From: an uncultured Hyphomicrobiales bacterium
GTDB taxonomy: Bacteria; Pseudomonadota; Alphaproteobacteria; Rhizobiales; Beijerinckiaceae
NCBI GenBank assembly: GCA_903902915.1
Contig: CAIUWR010000101.1
Span: 1 to 64,000, forward strand
Direction: 5' to 3'
DNA length: 64,000 bases
In this document: positions 55,685-63,780 of the stretch, piece after piece
How the letters are laid out: every line of letters starts with the position of its first letter
How positions within the stretch are numbered: position 1 is the stretch's first letter
Notes under the pieces: generated by a model
Told to the model about the DNA's origin: nothing
The model's input: the letters and a program-made list of their open reading frames with translations, nothing else
The model's database searches: none
Translations under genes and position numbers: made by a program

Positions 55685-56920
55685 TCACGCAAGCGCGCGT
55701 TCGTCGACGATCAGCTTGCCGTCGTCGGGCAAGTCGCCCGGCTCCACGAGTTCCACGGCGCCGTCGAGGCCGGTGACGTCCTTCAGCGATGCGCTCAGTT
55801 CGCTGGCCAGACCCGCAGCGTCGCGCGGCGCCTCTGCGCGCAGCAGCAGCGCCTCCTTGGCGTTTTCGTTGCGCAGCACAAGCCGCAGCCGACGCACCGC
55901 CGCATGGCGCGCGCCAATGTCGATCACCTGCGAGGGCAGCAATGTGCGGTTCGCCATCAGCGCCGCCTGATCGGCGCGGCCGAGCCAGCCCTTGATGCGG
56001 ATATTGGTGCGCCCGCAAGGCGAGGGGTCGGGCATGATCATCGACAGATCGCCCGTCGAACACCGCAGCATCGGACAATCGAGATTGAGGCGCGTGACGA
56101 CGACTTCGCCAATCTCGCCAGCGGGCGCCGGCTCGTTCGCGCCTGGCCGCACGATCTCCACAATCACGCCTTCGTTCACGACCATGCCGACATTCACGGC
56201 GCCGTTTTCATCATCGGTCTCATAGGCGATGACGCCAAGCATCGACGTGGCGTAGCCTTGATGCACACGCACGCCGCGCGCCTCGATGCTGGCGCGCAAA
56301 TGCTGCGACAGCGGCGCCCCGAAGACAAAGGCTTTCTGGATCGAGGAGACGTCGCGGCGTAATTCCGCCGCCTTCTGCAACAGCAGATCGAGAAAGGCCG
56401 CCTTGCCGCAAAAGGCGTTGGGCCGCAGTGTTTCGATGGCGTCGAGCTGACGTTCGATCATCGACGAGCCGGCAGGAATGACCGCGCAACCCAGCGCCTG
56501 CGCGCCGCTCTCGATCATGTGGCCCGCAGCCGAAAGATGGTAGGAAAAGCTGTTCAGGATGATGTCGCCGCGCGTGAAGCCCGCCGCATGCATGGCGCGG
56601 GCGCAGCCCCACCAATCTTTCGCATGGCCTTCGAGCACGGTGGGGAACAGACGACGCAGCAAGCCAGGGCGCGTGGCGTTGAACCCGCCGAAGGGCGGCT
56701 CCTGCTCGCGCAGGCGCGCCATGTCGGATCCGCGCAAAACCGGGAATTGCGCAAGCTCTTCCTTGCCGCGAAATTCGGCGATCCGGGCCGCACGGATCAG
56801 ACGGCGTAGCCCCGAAGCGCGCGGCTTCGCGACAGCGATGATCGTCTTCAAATCCCGGTAGAGTGCGAGCTCTCTCGATTTGACAGCTCGCGTCTCCAGG
56901 CGATCCATGAAATCCGGCAT
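55685..56920 (-). CDS. phenylacetate-CoA ligase-like (PaaK-related) adenylate-forming protein
   Basis: The 411-residue protein is of the PaaK type: an N-terminal helical part (RELALYRDLKTIIAVAKPRASGLRRLI), FTRGDIILNSFSYHLSAAGHMIESGAQALGCAVIPAG, then HQGYATSMLGVIAYE, GEIGEVVVTRLNLDCPMLRCSTGDLS and a C-terminal lid with RIKGWLGRADQ. The classical P-loop SSGTTG is not visible, so ATP binding may be modified. The acid substrate is unknown. A palindrome TGATTG-AAA-CAATCA lies 113 bases upstream of the start. Confidence 0.8.
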   Translation of the reverse strand: MPDFMDRLETRAVKSRELALYRDLKTIIAVAKPRASGLRRLIRAARIAEFRGKEELAQFPVLRGSDMARLREQEPPFGGFNATRPGLLRRLFPTVLEGHAKDWWGCARAMHAAGFTRGDIILNSFSYHLSAAGHMIESGAQALGCAVIPAGSSMIERQLDAIETLRPNAFCGKAAFLDLLLQKAAELRRDVSSIQKAFVFGAPLSQHLRASIEARGVRVHQGYATSMLGVIAYETDDENGAVNVGMVVNEGVIVEIVRPGANEPAPAGEIGEVVVTRLNLDCPMLRCSTGDLSMIMPDPSPCGRTNIRIKGWLGRADQAALMANRTLLPSQVIDIGARHAAVRRLRLVLRNENAKEALLLRAEAPRDAAGLASELSASLKDVTGLDGAVELVEPGDLPDDGKLIVDERALA

Positions 56921-57175: not shown

Positions 57176-58183
57176 TCAGTTCGGCAAATCCAGCACGCCC
57201 GCCGCGCCGTCTTCCGCGCCGAAAACCAGCTTGCGTCCATCGTCGTTCCAGGCGAGCGCGCTGATGGCGCCGCCCTTGGCCTCGCCGCTCTGGCGCACCA
57301 GCAGCTCCGAGCCATCGCTGAGGCGGGTCAGCATCACCCAGCCATCGTCATAGCCGATGGCGATGACGAGCGCGCGTGGATGGAAGGCCACGCGCGTCAC
57401 GCGGGCTGTGCGCACGCCGCATTCGCGCGGACCTTTGCCCATTGGCCCGTCCTTGCTGTCGAAGGGCCAGATGATGCAGGCTTCGGCGCCCGACGTCGCG
57501 AGCCATTTGCCATCATGCGACCATGAGAAAGAGCGCGTCTTCGACGGATAGCCCGTCATGCGCATGTCCTTGTGGTCGGCGATGCGCCAACCATGCAGCG
57601 CGTTTTCCTGCATGGCGGTGACGGCGAATCTGCCGTCTGGGGAAATCGTCACATCGAGATGGGAGCCGCGCCACACGAGGCCCTCGGGCTCGGCCGCCGT
57701 ATTGGGAAACCACATGGAAACGCCGTTGTAATGGGCGAGCGCCAGGCGATATCCCTTGGGCATGAAGCACAGGCCGCGCACGCCGCTGGGGGCGGTGAAC
57801 GTCTTCACCTCGCCCTTGGCGTCGCGCGCGCGCACGGTCTTCGCCACGGTCCAGGCGGCGGCGCCGTCTTCGCGCAGGGCCAAGGCGTCGATCCATTTGC
57901 CCTTCTCGTCGGCGAGTTCCGTCACGGCGCCATCGGCGCGCAGTTCCATCACGCGCCCGTCGTCGCCGCCGCTGACCAAGCGGCCGTAAAGACATTGCGC
58001 GGTGAGGATCGCGGCTTTTTCATGCAGCTTGATGCGACGCTCGGCGCCGATCTCGGCGAACAAAGCCGTCCCATCGGCCAGCGCGAAAACCGGCGTGCGT
58101 CCGAAGAAGCCCGCGCAGACCGCTTCGCCATCCAGCGCGATGGGCGTGACATTCTGGGTGAGGGAGGTTTGCGTCTGGGTCAT
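57176..58183 (-). CDS. cytoplasmic WD40-repeat protein of the zinc operon
   Basis: The 335-residue beta-propeller has no signal peptide. WD-like blades are visible as repeated GDDGRVMEL, SPDGRFAVTAM, SWSHDGKWLATSG, AFHPRALVIAIGYDDGWV and AWNDDGRKLVFGAEDGAAGV, enough for six or seven blades. It is the last gene of the run with the COG0523 GTPase, 33 bases after the 135-residue unknown. WD40 proteins of this size accompany COG0523 GTPases in several alphaproteobacteria, which suggests a scaffold or client adaptor for metal delivery. This is inference. It differs from the periplasmic zinc chaperone AztD in lacking export. Confidence 0.78.
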   Translation of the reverse strand: MTQTQTSLTQNVTPIALDGEAVCAGFFGRTPVFALADGTALFAEIGAERRIKLHEKAAILTAQCLYGRLVSGGDDGRVMELRADGAVTELADEKGKWIDALALREDGAAAWTVAKTVRARDAKGEVKTFTAPSGVRGLCFMPKGYRLALAHYNGVSMWFPNTAAEPEGLVWRGSHLDVTISPDGRFAVTAMQENALHGWRIADHKDMRMTGYPSKTRSFSWSHDGKWLATSGAEACIIWPFDSKDGPMGKGPRECGVRTARVTRVAFHPRALVIAIGYDDGWVMLTRLSDGSELLVRQSGEAKGGAISALAWNDDGRKLVFGAEDGAAGVLDLPN

Positions 58184-58216
58184 GGTGTTTCAGCGACAGG
58201 ACAAGCGGACTTGAGG

Positions 58217-58624
58217 TCACGCGTCCCCGTCCTCCTCGTCGTTCGTTGGAAGATAATGCGACACGTTGAGTTCGATCTGCGCATCCGCCAGCACGGTCAG
58301 GAATTCGAGCGGCCAGGAATAGGCGAAGGACTCGCGTTCCCGATCGGCGAGCACGCCGAATTCGAGCACGCAACGCGCGGCGTGATGGGGTTCCGAAAAA
58401 GGCGTGCGCTCTGGCGCCAGCATCCGCTCCAGTTTGGAGGCGATGCGTAGGCACGCGTCCGCAACCGACAGCGTCGGATCCTTCGGCGACAGGTCGTAGA
58501 TGAAGGTGCGCAAGCCTTCCGCGCCCTCGTCAGACCGCACGGGGTCGCCCGGCAGGCGCGGCGCGGGACCATTCCAGCCCCGCACGTCGATGCGCAGCAC
58601 GACGCCGAGCGCGACGGGCTCCAT
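58217..58624 (-). CDS. uncharacterised 135-residue protein in the zinc operon
   Basis: The ATG at 58624 overlaps the stop of the upstream GTPase by one base (TGATGG), so the two are translationally coupled. It has no signal or membrane segment. The pattern is alpha/beta: VALGVVLRIDVRGWNG, GLRTFIYDLSPKDPTLSVADACLRIASKLERMLAPE, then ARCVLEFGVLADRERESFAYSWPLEFLTVLADAQIELNVSHYLP and an acidic tail NDEEDGDA. I recognise no family. The single cysteine and few histidines do not suggest a zinc site. A partner or regulator of the GTPase is the simplest guess. Confidence 0.7.
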   Translation of the reverse strand: MEPVALGVVLRIDVRGWNGPAPRLPGDPVRSDEGAEGLRTFIYDLSPKDPTLSVADACLRIASKLERMLAPERTPFSEPHHAARCVLEFGVLADRERESFAYSWPLEFLTVLADAQIELNVSHYLPTNDEEDGDA

Positions 58625-59712
58625 CAGACCGCGCAGCTCTGCACGCCTTGGCGCAGCTCGTCTTCTTTCAGATTGCGGCCGATGAAGACCACCTTGGACT
58701 CGCGCCGTTCGCCGGGCTTCCATTCGCGCTGGGAGTCGCCGTCGAGGATCATGTGCACGCCCTGAAACACGAAGCGCTTCGGGTCGTCCTTGAAGGAGAG
58801 GATGCCCTTGGAACGCAGGATGTTCGGGCCTTCGCGCTGCACCAGCTCATTGATCCAGGCCATGAACTTGTTGGCGTCGAGATCGCCGTCGAGACGGATC
58901 GACACCGACTGCATTTCCTCGTCGTGATAGACCTTCAGGTTCGAGGCGCCGTGGTCGTGGCCGTGATGGTCGTGCCCATGCCCGTGATGATGATGTCCAT
59001 GGTCGTGGCCATGATGGGCGTGGTCATGATGCGGATCGTCGCAATCAGGCCCGCAGGCGAGGAATTCCGGCTCGATTTCGAGGATGCGCTCGAGATCGAA
59101 GGCGTTGCGGCCCAGCACGGCGTCGAGCGGCACCTGGCAACGGGTGGTCTTGTGCAGCTTGGCGTAGGGATTGATGGCGCGAATGCGGCCCTCGACCTCG
59201 GCGAGCTCGGCCTCGCTCACAAGATCGGTCTTGTTGAGGATGATCACATCGGCGAAGGCGATCTGGTTCTTCGCTTCGGGCGCGTCCTTCAGGCGGTCGC
59301 TCAGCCATTTGGCGTCGGCCACGGTCACCACGGCGTCGAGGCGCGCGCGCTCCTGCACGTCTTCATCCACGAAGAAGGTCTGCGCCACGGGCGCGGGATC
59401 GGCGAGGCCCGTGGTCTCGACGATGATGGCGTCGAACTGGCCCTTGCGCTTCATCAGGCCTTCGACGATGCGGATGAGATCGCCGCGCACGGTGCAGCAG
59501 ATGCAGCCGTTGTTCATCTCGAACACTTCTTCGTCGGCGCCGACCACGAGGTCATTGTCGATGCCGATTTCGCCGAATTCGTTGACGATGACGGCGTAGC
59601 GCTGGCCATGCTGCTCGCTGAGGATGCGGTTCAGCAGGGTGGTCTTGCCCGCGCCCAGATAGCCGGTGAGGACGGTGACGGGGATCTTGGTGGAGGCGGG
59701 GGCTTCGGACAT
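58624..59712 (-). CDS. COG0523/CobW-family GTPase with His-rich zinc-binding insert
   Basis: This family uses GTP to deliver metal to client enzymes; zinc members (ZigA/ZNG1-like) work under zinc starvation. The 362-residue protein has Walker [10 protein letters not shown] (17-25), the metal-binding CxCC motif NGCICC (C70, C72, C73), [10 protein letters not shown], nucleotide motif ILNKTDL and, at about residues 222-255, an insert with more than a dozen histidines separated by D/G. The CobW_C domain follows. Its place downstream of ZnuABC and a Zur-type site argues for zinc, not cobalt. AAAGGG precedes the ATG. Confidence 0.93.
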
Positions 59713-59813
59713 GGAGTTACCCTTTCAATCAGTTCGCAGGCCAGACCGCAGGGGCGAGCGCTTTTGCGCCGCCGCGCCTTTGGTCCGGAATTCCGGGGAA
59801 GGCCGCGCTCCGC

Positions 59814-60698
59814 CTATGGCGCAAGCGCAGCCTGCAGCTCTCTTATATTGTACTGAACCATGTCGATGTAAGTCCCTGCCGGACCATCGGGGGGCGAAAG
59901 ACCGTCCGAATAGAGCGCGCCGCCGATTTTCGCTCCGGATTCTGCCGCGATCTGGCGGGTGAGCCTTGGATCGGTGACGTTCTCAAGAAAAACGGCGGGT
60001 ATTTTCTGCGCCTTGATCTGGCGGATGATCCGCGCCACGTCCTTCGCCGAGGCCTCGCTGTCGGTGGAGACCCCCAGCGGGGCGATGAAGGCGAGGCCAT
60101 AGGCGGCGCCGAAATAGCCGAAGGCGTCGTGGGTGGTGACCACCTTGCGACGCTCTGGGGGGATTGTGGCGACGGCCGCGCGCACTTGCCCTTCGACCGC
60201 GTCGAGGCGGGCGAGATAGGCCTGCGCCCTTGCGGCATATTCGTCTTTGCCCGCAGGATCGACGGCGCTGAGGTCGTCGCGGATATTGGCCACATAGATC
60301 TTGGCATTGGCGAGGGATTGCCAGGCGTGCGGGTCGGCGCCGCCGTGCTCGTCCTTGCCTGGCAGCGGCGTGATCCCGCGCGTGGCGACGGCGATGCGCG
60401 CTTTCGTTCCCGAAGAGGTCACCAGCCGGTCGATCCAACCTTCCAGCTTCAGCCCGTTGATGACGATGAGCTTGGCGTCCGCCAGCTTGCGCGCGTCCTG
60501 CGGGGTCGGCGCATAGACATGGGCGTCGCCGCCCGGCGCCACGAGGCTCGTCACAGTAATGCGGTCGCCGCCCACGTTGCGCATGAGATCGGCGAGGATG
60601 GAGAAGCTGGCGACCACGGGGAGGCGCGGCGCCTCCTGCGCCAGAGCGGGCAGGGCGGCGAGCGACAGGCAGGCCGCGATCAGGGAGCGGAAAAGCAT
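59814..60698 (-). CDS. znuA: zinc ABC-transporter binding protein (ZnuA/AztC type)
   Basis: The 294-residue cluster A-I binding protein has a Sec signal to residue 20. Metal ligands read as H60 (GDAHVYAP), H124 (ADPHAW), H190 (TTHDAFGYF) and D265 (YSDGLS). Three histidines plus aspartate is the zinc-type site; manganese members have Glu at the third position. The His/acid loop is short (KDEHGGADPH), as in AztC. The ATG is 2 bases after the permease stop, with GGAGGCC upstream. It captures Zn2+ in the periplasm and hands it to ZnuB. Confidence 0.92.
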   Translation of the reverse strand: MLFRSLIAACLSLAALPALAQEAPRLPVVASFSILADLMRNVGGDRITVTSLVAPGGDAHVYAPTPQDARKLADAKLIVINGLKLEGWIDRLVTSSGTKARIAVATRGITPLPGKDEHGGADPHAWQSLANAKIYVANIRDDLSAVDPAGKDEYAARAQAYLARLDAVEGQVRAAVATIPPERRKVVTTHDAFGYFGAAYGLAFIAPLGVSTDSEASAKDVARIIRQIKAQKIPAVFLENVTDPRLTRQIAAESGAKIGGALYSDGLSPPDGPAGTYIDMVQYNIRELQAALAP

Positions 60699-60700
60699 GT

Positions 60701-61576
60701 CTAGGCCTCCAGATGATGGCGCGGGCGCAACAGGCGGATGAGCCCGCCCGCCTGACCCAGAACCATGGAGACGAGATAGATGACCCCCGCCACCAGGATC
60801 ACCAGCGGCCCCGAGGGCGCGCCCGACTGATAGGAGAGCACGAGGCCAAGATAACTCGACGCCAGCCCGAATCCCGCCGCGATCACCACCATGCGGCTGA
60901 TGTCGGCGCTCCAGAAGCGCGCGGCGGCGGCGGGCAGCATCATGATCCCGACCGCCATCAGCGTGCCCAGGGCGTGAAAGCCCGCCACCAGATTCATCAC
61001 CACGATGCCGAGAAACAGGAGCTGCGCCGGGGCCCCCGCGCGGCTGACGCTGGCGAGGAAAAACGGGTCCACGGTCTCCATCACCAACGGGCGATAGAGC
61101 GCGGCGAGGCCCAGCAGTGTCAGGCTGGCGATTGCGGCCAGCAGCAGAAGGGTGGCGTCGTCCAGCGCCAGCACATTGCCGAACAGCACATGCAAAAGGT
61201 CGATGTTCGAGCCTTTGAGGGAGACGATGGTGACGCCCAGAGCCAGCGAAATCAGATAAAAGGCCGCGAGCGAGGCGTCTTCGCGCAGGGCTGTGGCGCG
61301 CGCCACGGCGCCCGAGGCGATGGCGACCACGAAGCCCGCGATCATGCCCCCCGCCGTCATGGCGCCCAGCGACAGGCCCGCGACGAGGTAGCCGATGGCC
61401 GCGCCCGGAAGGATCGCATGGGCCATGGCGTCGCCGGTCAGCGACATGCGCCGCAGGATGAGGAAGACGCCGACCGGCGCGCCCGCCAGCGCCAGCGCCA
61501 TGGCGCCCACCAGCGCGCGGCGCATGAATTCGAATTCGGCGAAGGGTGCGAAGAACAGATCATAGAGGGCGCTCAT
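60701..61576 (-). CDS. znuB: zinc ABC-transporter permease
   Basis: The 291-residue ABC-3-family permease has eight or nine helices. PVGVFLILRRMSLTGDAMAHAILPGAAIGYL is the conserved start with the ATPase-contact loop, and GFHALGTLMAVGIMMLPAAAARFW is the late conserved block. The ATG at 61576 lies 4 bases after the ATPase stop; a long in-frame extension to 61849 lies inside the ATPase gene and is rejected. Confidence 0.93.
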   Translation of the reverse strand: MSALYDLFFAPFAEFEFMRRALVGAMALALAGAPVGVFLILRRMSLTGDAMAHAILPGAAIGYLVAGLSLGAMTAGGMIAGFVVAIASGAVARATALREDASLAAFYLISLALGVTIVSLKGSNIDLLHVLFGNVLALDDATLLLLAAIASLTLLGLAALYRPLVMETVDPFFLASVSRAGAPAQLLFLGIVVMNLVAGFHALGTLMAVGIMMLPAAAARFWSADISRMVVIAAGFGLASSYLGLVLSYQSGAPSGPLVILVAGVIYLVSMVLGQAGGLIRLLRPRHHLEA

Positions 61577-61580
61577 GGGA

Positions 61581-62321
61581 TCAGGCCACCCTCTCGCATT
61601 CATGGGCTTCCCGGTCGAAGGCTTCGACCATGCGGCGGGCGCGCAGCAGATTCTCGGATCGCAGCACCTCCTCGGTCGCGCCCCAGGCCACCGGCTCGCG
61701 CGCCAGCAGCAGCGCCTTGGGGAAACAGCGGCGGATGATCTCGTCGTCATGCAGCACGGCCACCACCGTGCGCTTCTCGCCATGCCAGCGCGCCACGACC
61801 TCGAGCAGATCCGCCGTGGTCTTGCTGTCCAGCGCCGTGAAGGGCTCATCGAGCAGGATCACGGGCGCGTCCTGCAACAGCAGGCGGGCGAAGAGCATGC
61901 GCTGCATCTGCCCGCCCGAAAGGGTGCCGATGGGGCGATCTTCCAATCCTGTGAGGCCGACCGAGGCGATGGCTTCGAACGCGCGGGCTTCCTTCGCGCG
62001 GCTGAGGCCGCCGAACAGGCCCGCGCTGCGCCAGAAGCCCATGGCCACGAGATCGAAGACATTGATGGGGAAGGAACGGTCGATTTCGGCGGCCTGCGGC
62101 AAATAGGCGATGTCGCGCGCCGCGCAGGCGAGCCGCTCCACATGGCCCCCCAGCGGCTGGATCGCCCCCGCGATGGCCTTCAGCAGGGTGGACTTGCCCG
62201 CGCCATTGGGGCCGCAGACCGCCAGCAGATCGCCGGTCTCCACCACGCCGTCCAGATGATGCACCGCCGGATGGCGGTCATAGCCCAATGTCAGATCCTT
62301 GAAACGCAGCGCGATGGTCAT
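61581..62321 (-). CDS. znuC: zinc ABC-transporter ATP-binding protein
   Basis: The 246-residue ATPase has Walker A GPNGAGKSTLLKA, Q-loop YLPQAAEIDRSFP (the manganese/zinc-family form), signature LSGGQMQRMLFARL, Walker B VILLDEPFTALD and switch VLHDDEI, which has His-Asp as in ZnuC. It begins 3 bases after the stop of the small His-rich protein. Energises ZnuB. Confidence 0.94.
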   Translation of the reverse strand: MTIALRFKDLTLGYDRHPAVHHLDGVVETGDLLAVCGPNGAGKSTLLKAIAGAIQPLGGHVERLACAARDIAYLPQAAEIDRSFPINVFDLVAMGFWRSAGLFGGLSRAKEARAFEAIASVGLTGLEDRPIGTLSGGQMQRMLFARLLLQDAPVILLDEPFTALDSKTTADLLEVVARWHGEKRTVVAVLHDDEIIRRCFPKALLLAREPVAWGATEEVLRSENLLRARRMVEAFDREAHECERVA

Positions 62322-62324
62322 GGC

Positions 62325-62537
62325 TTAGCCGATCGCCCAGAAAACGCCCGCCCAGATCGCCGCAACGGCCCCGCCCGAAATGGCGAGCCTTTGGAGGGCG
62401 GACATGCGCAGCAGCGAAGCTGGCGGGCGCGCGGGCTGCGCTTTGACAAGGGGAGCGCGCGCGTGGGGCGCATGAGCATGGCCATGTGGGTGATCAAGCG
62501 CGTGATCATGTTCGTATACGCCAGATGCGCTGTCCAT
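62325..62537 (-). CDS. 70-residue His-rich single-pass membrane protein, first gene of the zinc operon
   Basis: The N-terminal part reads [18 protein letters not shown], with seven histidines between residues 10 and 25 interleaved with acids. A basic/proline linker ([19 protein letters not shown]) leads to one C-terminal transmembrane helix at about 51-70 ([20 protein letters not shown]). The ATG at 62537 is 24 bases from the Zur-type site; a TTG one codon group upstream is possible. The stop is 3 bases before znuC. By charge the His tail should face the cytoplasm, where it could buffer or guide incoming zinc. No family recognised. Confidence 0.75.
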
Positions 62538-62560
62538 CAACCGGGCTCTCGTTCAAGGTA

Positions 62561-62577
62561 ATGTTATATTATTACAT
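62561..62577. promoter_or_regulatory. Zur-type palindromic operator
   Basis: ATGTTATATTATTACAT is a 17-base palindrome with 7 of 8 positions matching between arms (ATGTTATA / ATGTAATA on the other strand). It fits the proteobacterial Zur consensus core GTTATA-N-TATAAC. It sits 24 bases before the His-rich gene and 94 bases before the divergent formaldehyde dehydrogenase gene, overlapping a likely -10 (TATAAC, minus strand). Zn-loaded Zur would block the zinc operon. Confidence 0.75.
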
Positions 62578-62670: not shown

Positions 62671-63780
62671 ATGAAAACCCGCGCCGCCGTCGCCTTCGCC
62701 GCCAAGAAGCCGCTCGAAATCGTCGAGCTCGATCTTGAGGGGCCAAAGGCTGGCGAAGTGCTCGTCGAGATCAAGGCGACCGGCATTTGCCACACGGATT
62801 ATTACACCCTCTCGGGCGCGGATCCTGAAGGGCTGTTTCCCTGCGTTCTGGGCCATGAGGGCGCGGGCGTGGTGGTGGATGTGGGCGCGGGCGTGCGCTC
62901 GCTCAAGAAGGGCGATCACGTGATCCCGCTCTACACGCCCGAATGCCGGGAGTGCAAAAGCTGCCTCTCGCGCAAGACCAATCTGTGCACAGCCATCCGC
63001 TCCACGCAAGGCAAGGGCGTCATGCCCGACGGCACCAGCCGGTTCCGCTGCGACGCAGAGCCGGTGCTGCATTATATGGGCGCCTCGACCTTCTCGAATT
63101 TCATCGTCGTGCCCGAAATCGCGCTGGCGAAAATCCGCGAGGACGCGCCTTTCGACAAGGTCTGCTACATCGGCTGCGGCGTCACCACGGGCATCGGCGC
63201 GGTCATCTGGACCGCCAAGGCGGAGGTCGGCTGCACGGCGGTGGTCTTCGGCCTCGGCGGCATCGGGCTGAACGTCATTCAGGGCCTGCGGATGATCGGC
63301 GCCGAGCAGATCATTGGCGTCGATGTGAATCCGGGCAAGAAGGCCATGGCCGAGAAATTTGGCATGACCCATTTCGTCAATCCCACGGAAGTCGGCGCGG
63401 ATCTCGTGCCCTATCTGGTGAACCTCACCGGCGGCGGCGCGGATTATTCCTTCGATTGCACGGGCAATGTCGCCGTCATGCGTCAGGCGCTGGAATGCAC
63501 CCATCGCGGCTGGGGCCAGTCGATCATCATTGGCGTGGCGCCGTCTGGCGCGGAGATTTCCACGCGCCCGTTCCAGCTGGTCACCGGGCGCGTCTGGAAG
63601 GGCACGGCCTTTGGCGGCGCGCGCGGGCGCACCGATGTGCCGCGCATCGTCGACTGGTACATGGAAGGCCGCATCAATATCGACGACCTCATCACCCACA
63701 AACTGCCGCTGGAGCGCATCAACGAAGGTTTCGACCTGATGCACGAAGGCAAGTCGATCCGCACGGTGGTGGAATTCTGA
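62671..63780 (+). CDS. frmA: S-(hydroxymethyl)glutathione dehydrogenase (class III alcohol dehydrogenase)
   Basis: It oxidises the glutathione-formaldehyde adduct with NAD+ and also reduces S-nitrosoglutathione. The 369-residue zinc enzyme has catalytic-zinc ligands C40 ([10 protein letters not shown]) and H62 (GHEGAG), the structural-zinc cysteines C92, C95, C98, C106 ([12 protein letters not shown]), Rossmann [12 protein letters not shown] and the class III pattern [19 protein letters not shown]. The ATG at 62671 follows CAGGAG. It needs two zinc ions per subunit and lies divergent from the zinc operon, possibly sharing its control region. Confidence 0.96.

Follow-up and report, generated by a model that had tools for sequence, protein, structure and literature searches.

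The 64,000-nucleotide stretch analysed here (hereafter the window; contig CAIUWR010000101.1, positions 1 to 64,000, from an uncultured bacterium of the Hyphomicrobiales) carries seven genes in one minus-strand run behind a Zur-type palindrome. We consider it probable that this run is a Zur-repressed zinc-limitation operon composed of two evolutionarily separable modules, which share one Zur switch. The first module would be an AztABC-like zinc ATP-binding cassette (ABC) importer together with a small membrane protein, predicted to cross the membrane once, whose gene directly precedes that of the ATPase. The second would consist of a COG0523 GTPase, a dedicated and probably cytosolic WD40 propeller, and a genus-specific protein of 135 residues (p135). 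The features of the operon are listed below in the order of transcription.

62561-62577, no strand: Zur-type palindrome, separated from the first ATG by 23 bases
62325-62537, minus strand: mini membrane protein of 70 residues with a predicted single span and a His-rich N-terminal tail (7 His); conserved as a family, no named family
61581-62321, minus strand: ATPase, ZnuC/AztA-like (NCBIfam AztA, 213.2 bits, cut-off 220)
60701-61576, minus strand: permease, ZnuB/AztB-like (PF00950; NCBIfam AztB, 254.7 bits, cut-off 280)
59814-60698, minus strand: binding protein, ZnuA/AztC-like (NCBIfam AztC, 300.7 bits, cut-off 350; H60-H124-H190-D265)
58624-59712, minus strand: COG0523/CobW GTPase with a GCICC motif and a linker holding 17 His (PF02492 and PF07683)
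58217-58624, minus strand: p135, an orphan protein nearly confined to the genus of the window
57176-58183, minus strand: WD40-repeat propeller protein (Pfam WD40; co-occurs with the GTPase)

All seven open reading frames (ORFs; 57176-62537) and the palindrome ahead of the first gene were found as the original prediction, made from the window, had described them. The intergenic gaps are 3, 4, 2, 101, -1 and 33 bases in gene order; of the predicted range of 1 to 101 bases, the upper bound is correct and the lower bound is in fact 2, and the one-base stop/start overlap (TGATG) between the GTPase and p135 genes is present at 58624. The mini-protein gene may start at ATG 62537, which gives the 70 residues, or at TTG 62540. 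Pfam and NCBIfam models back the ABC ATPase, the ABC-3 permease, the ZnuA-type binding protein, the CobW and CobW_C domains and the WD40 protein, and the mini protein and p135 match nothing in Pfam (E up to 1) or NCBIfam (E up to 0.1). No structured RNA was found in the 101-base gap ahead of the GTPase gene (z 0.32), and a promoter and terminator scan returned nothing on the minus strand.

The pairing of the GTPase with the WD40 protein is genuine. Among 199 genomes of the order, WD40 relatives (E up to 1e-20) were found in 71 and the GTPase type (E up to 1e-80) in 72; 69 genomes have both, 2 have WD40 only, 3 have the GTPase only and 125 have neither, in agreement with the predicted link between the two. 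The two WD40-only genomes, both kept in the counts, are one with a weak, partial match holding a stop (G004) and one that is 58% complete (G162). Of the 69 genomes with both, 53 have the GTPase gene on the same strand as the WD40 gene and at most about 1 kb upstream of it. A further search of 12 genomes, in 10 of which the two genes lie apart, found a close GTPase homologue in all of these 10. In a sample of 40 order loci, taken from 40 of the 71 genomes with WD40, 30 have the GTPase gene followed by the WD40 gene (7 behind an importer, 22 not, and 1 too short), and 10 have no GTPase gene within 2 kb upstream of WD40. Among 80 named loci (the best 80 of 583 matches, several from one metagenome-assembled genome, MAG), 48 have the pair (34 behind an importer, 9 not, 5 too short) and 32, many of them Methylobacterium, have no such GTPase gene. 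Importer, GTPase and WD40 genes form a single run in the cultured relatives Methylocapsa aurea and Alsobacter metallidurans (L186, L200), for instance. The pair also extends beyond the order. Skermanella has a 46-residue mini gene, aztA, permease, binding protein, GTPase and WD40 in this order, and Gemmobacter has a weak mini match (E 0.009), aztA split over two frames, permease, binding protein, GTPase and WD40; the GTPase-WD40 pair was also found in Lichenicola and Devosia.

Both proteins have the hallmarks of their families. The GTPase matches PF02492 (E 2.2e-61) and PF07683 (E 2.1e-26) and has the CxCC motif, which places it in COG0523/CobW; its closest solved structure is E. coli YjiA, and its 198.9 bits against the NCBIfam ZigA equivalog (cut-off 600) place it outside ZigA. 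The WD40 protein scores 52.3 bits against PF00400 (cut-off 27), and its profile matches solved WD40 chains. No signal peptide was seen on inspection of its N-terminus, and the protein is probably cytosolic. An alignment of 59 WD40 relatives has 26 invariant columns, none of them Cys, and its kept segments include LHGW and MRM[TS]GYP, which we judged not to be general WD40 features. In Sinorhizobium meliloti pSymB (L293:1943-4999), a creatininase gene precedes the GTPase-WD40 pair, and its product is a candidate client enzyme. In Gemmobacter aquarius (L291:5960-6558), two small hypothetical genes of 90 and 109 residues follow WD40 in the zinc cluster, neither of which matches the p135 profile. 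The gaps of about 250-600 bases after the GTPase gene at other loci were considered as places for an extra gene, and proved mostly to encode the C-terminal domain of the GTPase, which the His linker separates from the rest. A few gaps hold other ORFs or none; one of these, of 980 bases (L057), has an ORF between the GTPase and WD40 genes. Five wider-gap loci, four of them Microvirga, were read by eye, and the p135 profile matched nothing there.

The distribution of p135 is much narrower. It was found in 37 of the 51 genomes of the window's genus, excluding from all genus counts a second, 42% WD40 copy (L162) in genome G700; one genus genome, G690, has a second partial p135 match near a contig edge. 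In the order, p135 is present in 2 of the 199 genomes, one being the window's own; the other match is a 30% relative beside a gene read as formate-tetrahydrofolate ligase, with no recognised zinc gene nearby. A draw of 99 genomes from the family gave matches in 6, namely the genome of the window, three others from the genus and two weak matches that we regard as noise (E 0.003 with a stop; E 0.006), and a draw of 385 genomes from the class gave 2 matches, one of which is likewise judged noise (three stops, E 4e-4). The named loci with p135 include those of Beijerinckiaceae MAGs and Roseiarcaceae bacterium H3SJ34-1. Within the genus, each of the 37 copies immediately precedes WD40 and 36 immediately follow the GTPase gene, the 37th being at a contig edge, so that p135 stands between the two in 36 of 37 loci, as expected if it belongs with them. 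The original prediction had named as evidence against itself a p135 and a WD40 gene usually found away from COG0523 genes; both usually lie close to them, as the 53 of 69 order genomes and the 36 of 37 genus loci demonstrate. Four genus genomes lack a WD40 match, and in these p135 likewise had no match.

On a quick WD40 tree, from which one row cut by its contig (L161) was excluded, the presence of p135 requires 4 changes, compared with 16.0 in shuffles, and this pattern fits a history of one gain and three losses. The ratio of nonsynonymous to synonymous changes (dN/dS) of p135 is 0.03-0.26 in 13 pairs, which indicates that p135 is under purifying selection, and p135 evolves faster than the GTPase in six pairs involving the window. 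Across an alignment of 38 rows, the invariant residues are Leu10, Pro22 and Tyr124 only, and the alignment shows no shared set of metal ligands. Pfam, NCBIfam, PHROGs and the PDB gave no convincing match for p135. It was considered as a piece of a neighbouring gene and rejected as such (hhalign probability no higher than 0.5% against the WD40, CobW, ZnuA and ZnuC profiles), and as a mobile or phage gene, for which there was no plasmid match and no PHROG match for the 4 members tried.

The two modules come apart within the genus itself. Among the 37 genus loci with p135, an importer lies within 1.5 kb upstream of the GTPase gene in 16 and does not in 9 (at one of which, L125, it is 3.5 kb away), and 12 could not be judged. 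Genome G680 is an example of a genus member whose GTPase block has no importer beside it. The fetched genus loci without p135 have an importer in 10 of 10 cases.

The importer appears to be of the AztABC kind. Its best NCBIfam models are AztA, AztB and AztC, with all three scores given above falling below the cut-offs. As a positive control, Paracoccus sp. MA passes all three models (248.8, 310.2 and 365.4 bits), with 397.9 for AztD (cut-off 400), and the Skermanella importer, which has the same gene order as the window, scores 224.7, 261.5 and 304.0 and is above the cut-off for AztA only. No AztD was found in the window's operon, the span searched for it, as the WD40 protein has no AztD model match and is dissimilar to Paracoccus AztD (BLASTP E 0.16; hhalign probability 0.4%). 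By these scores, the importer is AztABC-like and not AztABCD, as neither the equivalog scores nor the AztD propeller of that system is present. The best solved chains for the binding protein are 5kzj and 8svc. Alignment to both places its putative ligands at H60, H124, H190 and D265, three His and one acidic ligand, as in cluster A-I zinc binding proteins.

Evidence for Zur control comes from the palindrome ATGTAATAATATAACAT, which differs from the consensus ATGTTATANTATAACAT at one position. Within the window, the consensus has 1 match, compared with 0 in 100 dinucleotide shuffles, and the palindrome is the sole site in the 3.68-Mb genome at up to 3 mismatches, which bears out the earlier description of a Zur-linked zinc operon and supplies the promoter-proximal Zur-type operator expected of a Zur regulon member. 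The genome has two FUR-family genes at other places. One, at L258:1450-2022, is Zur-like (best NCBIfam model Zur, 100.3 bits, cut-off 167); the other is best matched by Irr (150.1 bits against IrrA, cut-off 150). In box counts that used a fixed consensus with a mismatch limit, a Zur box (up to 3 mismatches) was found upstream of 43 of 66 mini-protein genes, where shuffles expect 0.00.

The mini protein is conserved as a membrane segment. Among 66 distinct relatives, the core keeps Arg50 in 66, Ser41 in 65 and Trp62 in 65. Of the 25 genus loci with the ATPase gene, 24 have the mini gene upstream of it (the 25th is cut by its contig), as do 9 of 11 loci of the order sample and 36 of 36 loci of the named set, and a ZnuC-type gene lies downstream on the same strand in all 30 fetched class loci, at a distance of about 1 kb in L284. 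Since the conserved part is the membrane segment, with its invariant Arg and near-invariant Trp, the mini protein would lie in or next to the importer. The mini membrane protein of the original prediction is a conserved one with a predicted single span; the His-richness named there is not a fixed trait, as a tail with 3 or more His is present in 11-12 of the 30 class loci, depending on the start codon chosen. These counts suggest that the His tail is an add-on and the membrane segment the core, and a buffering function is therefore unlikely to be the core role of the mini protein. The 66-member set was found by a profile grown from a His-rich member, and its count of 65 His-rich members of 66 is biased accordingly. 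The Arg residues before the segment and the little charge after it suggest, by the positive-inside rule, that the tail is on the cytosolic side. A scan of 32 members against Pfam and NCBIfam gave no convincing family, the best match (E 0.00026) being to a nickel/cobalt exporter model in 2 members, probably via His-rich sequence. The window's mini protein has no PHROG match, and a literature search of one library found no published description of it. In Rhodoblastus sp. isolate BP08 (L190:6115-7999), the mini gene and ATPase gene are followed directly by WD40, and permease, binding protein and GTPase genes were not found between the ATPase gene and WD40.

The mechanism that is most likely as a whole, judged from the anatomy of the operon and the families of its proteins, can be described as follows. 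Under zinc starvation, Zur would leave the palindrome and both modules would rise together. The importer and its small membrane partner, most likely an accessory subunit, would bring zinc in; in this lineage the partner has a probably cytosolic His tail that could hold zinc. The GTPase and the propeller would then pass zinc to chosen enzymes, with the propeller most likely docking client apo-proteins or controlling the GTPase, GTP hydrolysis handing over the zinc, and p135 most likely modulating the pair as a genus-specific helper. In eukaryotes, the COG0523 GTPase ZNG1 loads a chosen zinc enzyme, its client METAP1, and the GTPase of the window would work in a similar way, although it lacks the start of what we take to be the client-docking motif of ZNG1. 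A stronger version would have the mini protein as an unnamed subunit of zinc ABC importers in Alphaproteobacteria that couples import to cytosolic zinc handling, and at the same time the GTPase, propeller and p135 as a single complex for metal insertion, with the propeller selecting the clients; we hold this combined proposal to be tentative and rather doubtful.

Several observations weigh against an operon of two modules under one Zur switch, or limit how far it reaches. A reversed control pattern also has 1 match per strand in the 3.68-Mb genome, and for 17 of the 66 mini-protein genes no box was found upstream even at up to 4 mismatches. A Zur box (up to 3 mismatches) was found at 2 of 49 GTPase genes that are not behind an importer and at 0 of 39 WD40 genes without a GTPase gene upstream, among loci whose upstream DNA extends for 1500 bases or more (3 of 53 and 0 of 41 when unrestricted). 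As judged from these counts, Zur control of the GTPase-WD40 module is not general. Together, the box counts and the importer counts at the genus loci suggest that p135 and WD40 track the GTPase and that the Zur box tracks the importer, and the window seems to be a place where both modules share one promoter. The co-occurrence counts, and with them their Fisher value (4e-47), ignore shared ancestry. As for the mini protein, a class-wide search with it alone, using an alignment of mostly His-rich members, gave matches in 42 of 385 genomes, with neighbours checked for the 30 that have loci. Among nine plasmid loci with this ATPase type, five have a mini gene, one of them weak (E 0.009); both Paracoccus loci that have an annotated AztD are among the four lacking it. 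Furthermore, in Caballeronia zhejiangensis (L289:4767-5867), a WD40-family protein (38% over 287 residues) is encoded in a soluble di-iron monooxygenase gene cluster with no adjacent GTPase gene, its neighbour being a 105-residue protein without a Pfam match. This suggests that the role of the WD40 protein may not be zinc-specific, and the propeller may serve other metalloenzymes.

The original prediction read the gene order as a single path, and in its full form zinc leaving the importer would be taken up by the mini protein's His tail, handed on to the GTPase and relayed by way of p135 and the propeller to enzymes. This would agree with the gene order of the window, with the His-rich stretches in the mini protein and in the GTPase linker, and with the order mini-ATPase-permease-binding protein-GTPase-WD40 recurring in many named genomes. 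The relay is the less likely version, since its steps are found apart (9 of the 25 judgeable genus loci lack an importer within 1.5 kb) and the His tail is optional class-wide; the scarcity of Zur boxes away from the importer and the lack of a conserved metal-ligand set in p135 also argue against a single path, and we regard it as quite improbable. It is unlikely, to a lesser degree, that WD40, with or without p135, is a passenger captured by the Zur operon from a housekeeping GTPase-WD40 pair of unrelated function. The pair away from the importer usually has no Zur box, and WD40 occurs without a GTPase gene directly upstream in 10 of 40 order loci and 32 of 80 named loci, as well as in the monooxygenase cluster, as a passenger would; the near-perfect co-occurrence of WD40 with this GTPase type, and the joining of the pair to the importer in several families and orders, are difficult to explain in this way.

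The propeller could also be a client or a regulator of the GTPase, similar to a GTPase-activating protein (GAP) or an exchange factor, and not a docking adaptor. The mostly one-to-one pairing of the two proteins and the strong conservation of LHGW and MRM[TS]GYP would both be consistent with such a role, and none of the evidence against it is decisive; we consider it possible and still on the doubtful side. That the importer carries manganese, iron or cobalt instead of zinc is very improbable. The next-best NCBIfam matches of the ATPase and the binding protein are the manganese systems MntA and MntC, whereas the third ligand place of the binding protein is His and not Glu, a position proposed as a rule for the metal carried (PMC12183173), and the box is of the Zur type.

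Two genes flank the operon in the window. At 62671-63780, divergent from the operon across the Zur-type site, is a gene read as zinc-type glutathione-dependent formaldehyde dehydrogenase, which has a close homologue in 8 of 46 other genus loci; at one locus (L131) the homologue is about 230 bases from the GTPase gene and the importer is not present. After WD40, at 55685-56920, is a gene read as phenylacetate-CoA-ligase-like, and 16 of 46 other genus loci carry a homologue.

Parts of this arrangement have been described before. Haas et al. 2009 (PMC2770081) described the clustering of prokaryotic COG0523 subfamily 5 genes with WD40 genes, znuABC and creatinase genes, so the link among GTPase, WD40 and znuABC has been in print since 2009 and is not new here. 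The window resembles subfamily 5 in having a GTPase gene beside WD40 and znuABC, with some Zur sites reported for the subfamily, and the creatinase there may be compared with the creatininase in S. meliloti; in contrast, the mini protein and p135 are not mentioned in the neighbourhood passages of that paper (PMC2770081). By neighbourhood, the window's GTPase would belong to subfamily 5, through its WD40 and znu genes, with creatininase in one record only. The AztABCD system of Paracoccus (PMC6689063, PMC7731109) shares with the window an AztABC-like importer, Zur control, CobW-family neighbours and a beta-propeller encoded alongside. It differs in that the window scores under all three AztABC cut-offs and its operon has the mini protein and no AztD; the window's WD40 protein has no sequence similarity to AztD, and no signal peptide was seen in it. 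ZniCBA of Rhizobium leguminosarum (PMC12183173) is likewise a Zur-dependent zinc importer whose binding protein has three His ligands, and the main text of that paper uses none of the terms COG0523, CobW and WD40.

Most of the operon pattern is therefore already known, and the mini protein and p135 are the parts that match no family model. To our knowledge, which proteins receive zinc from COG0523 GTPases, and how they are chosen, is still an open question in the field. Of the 74 order genomes with the GTPase type or the propeller, 69 have both, which makes the two a defined pair for study. If the mini membrane protein is a true importer subunit, it would be one that is missing from the family models searched.

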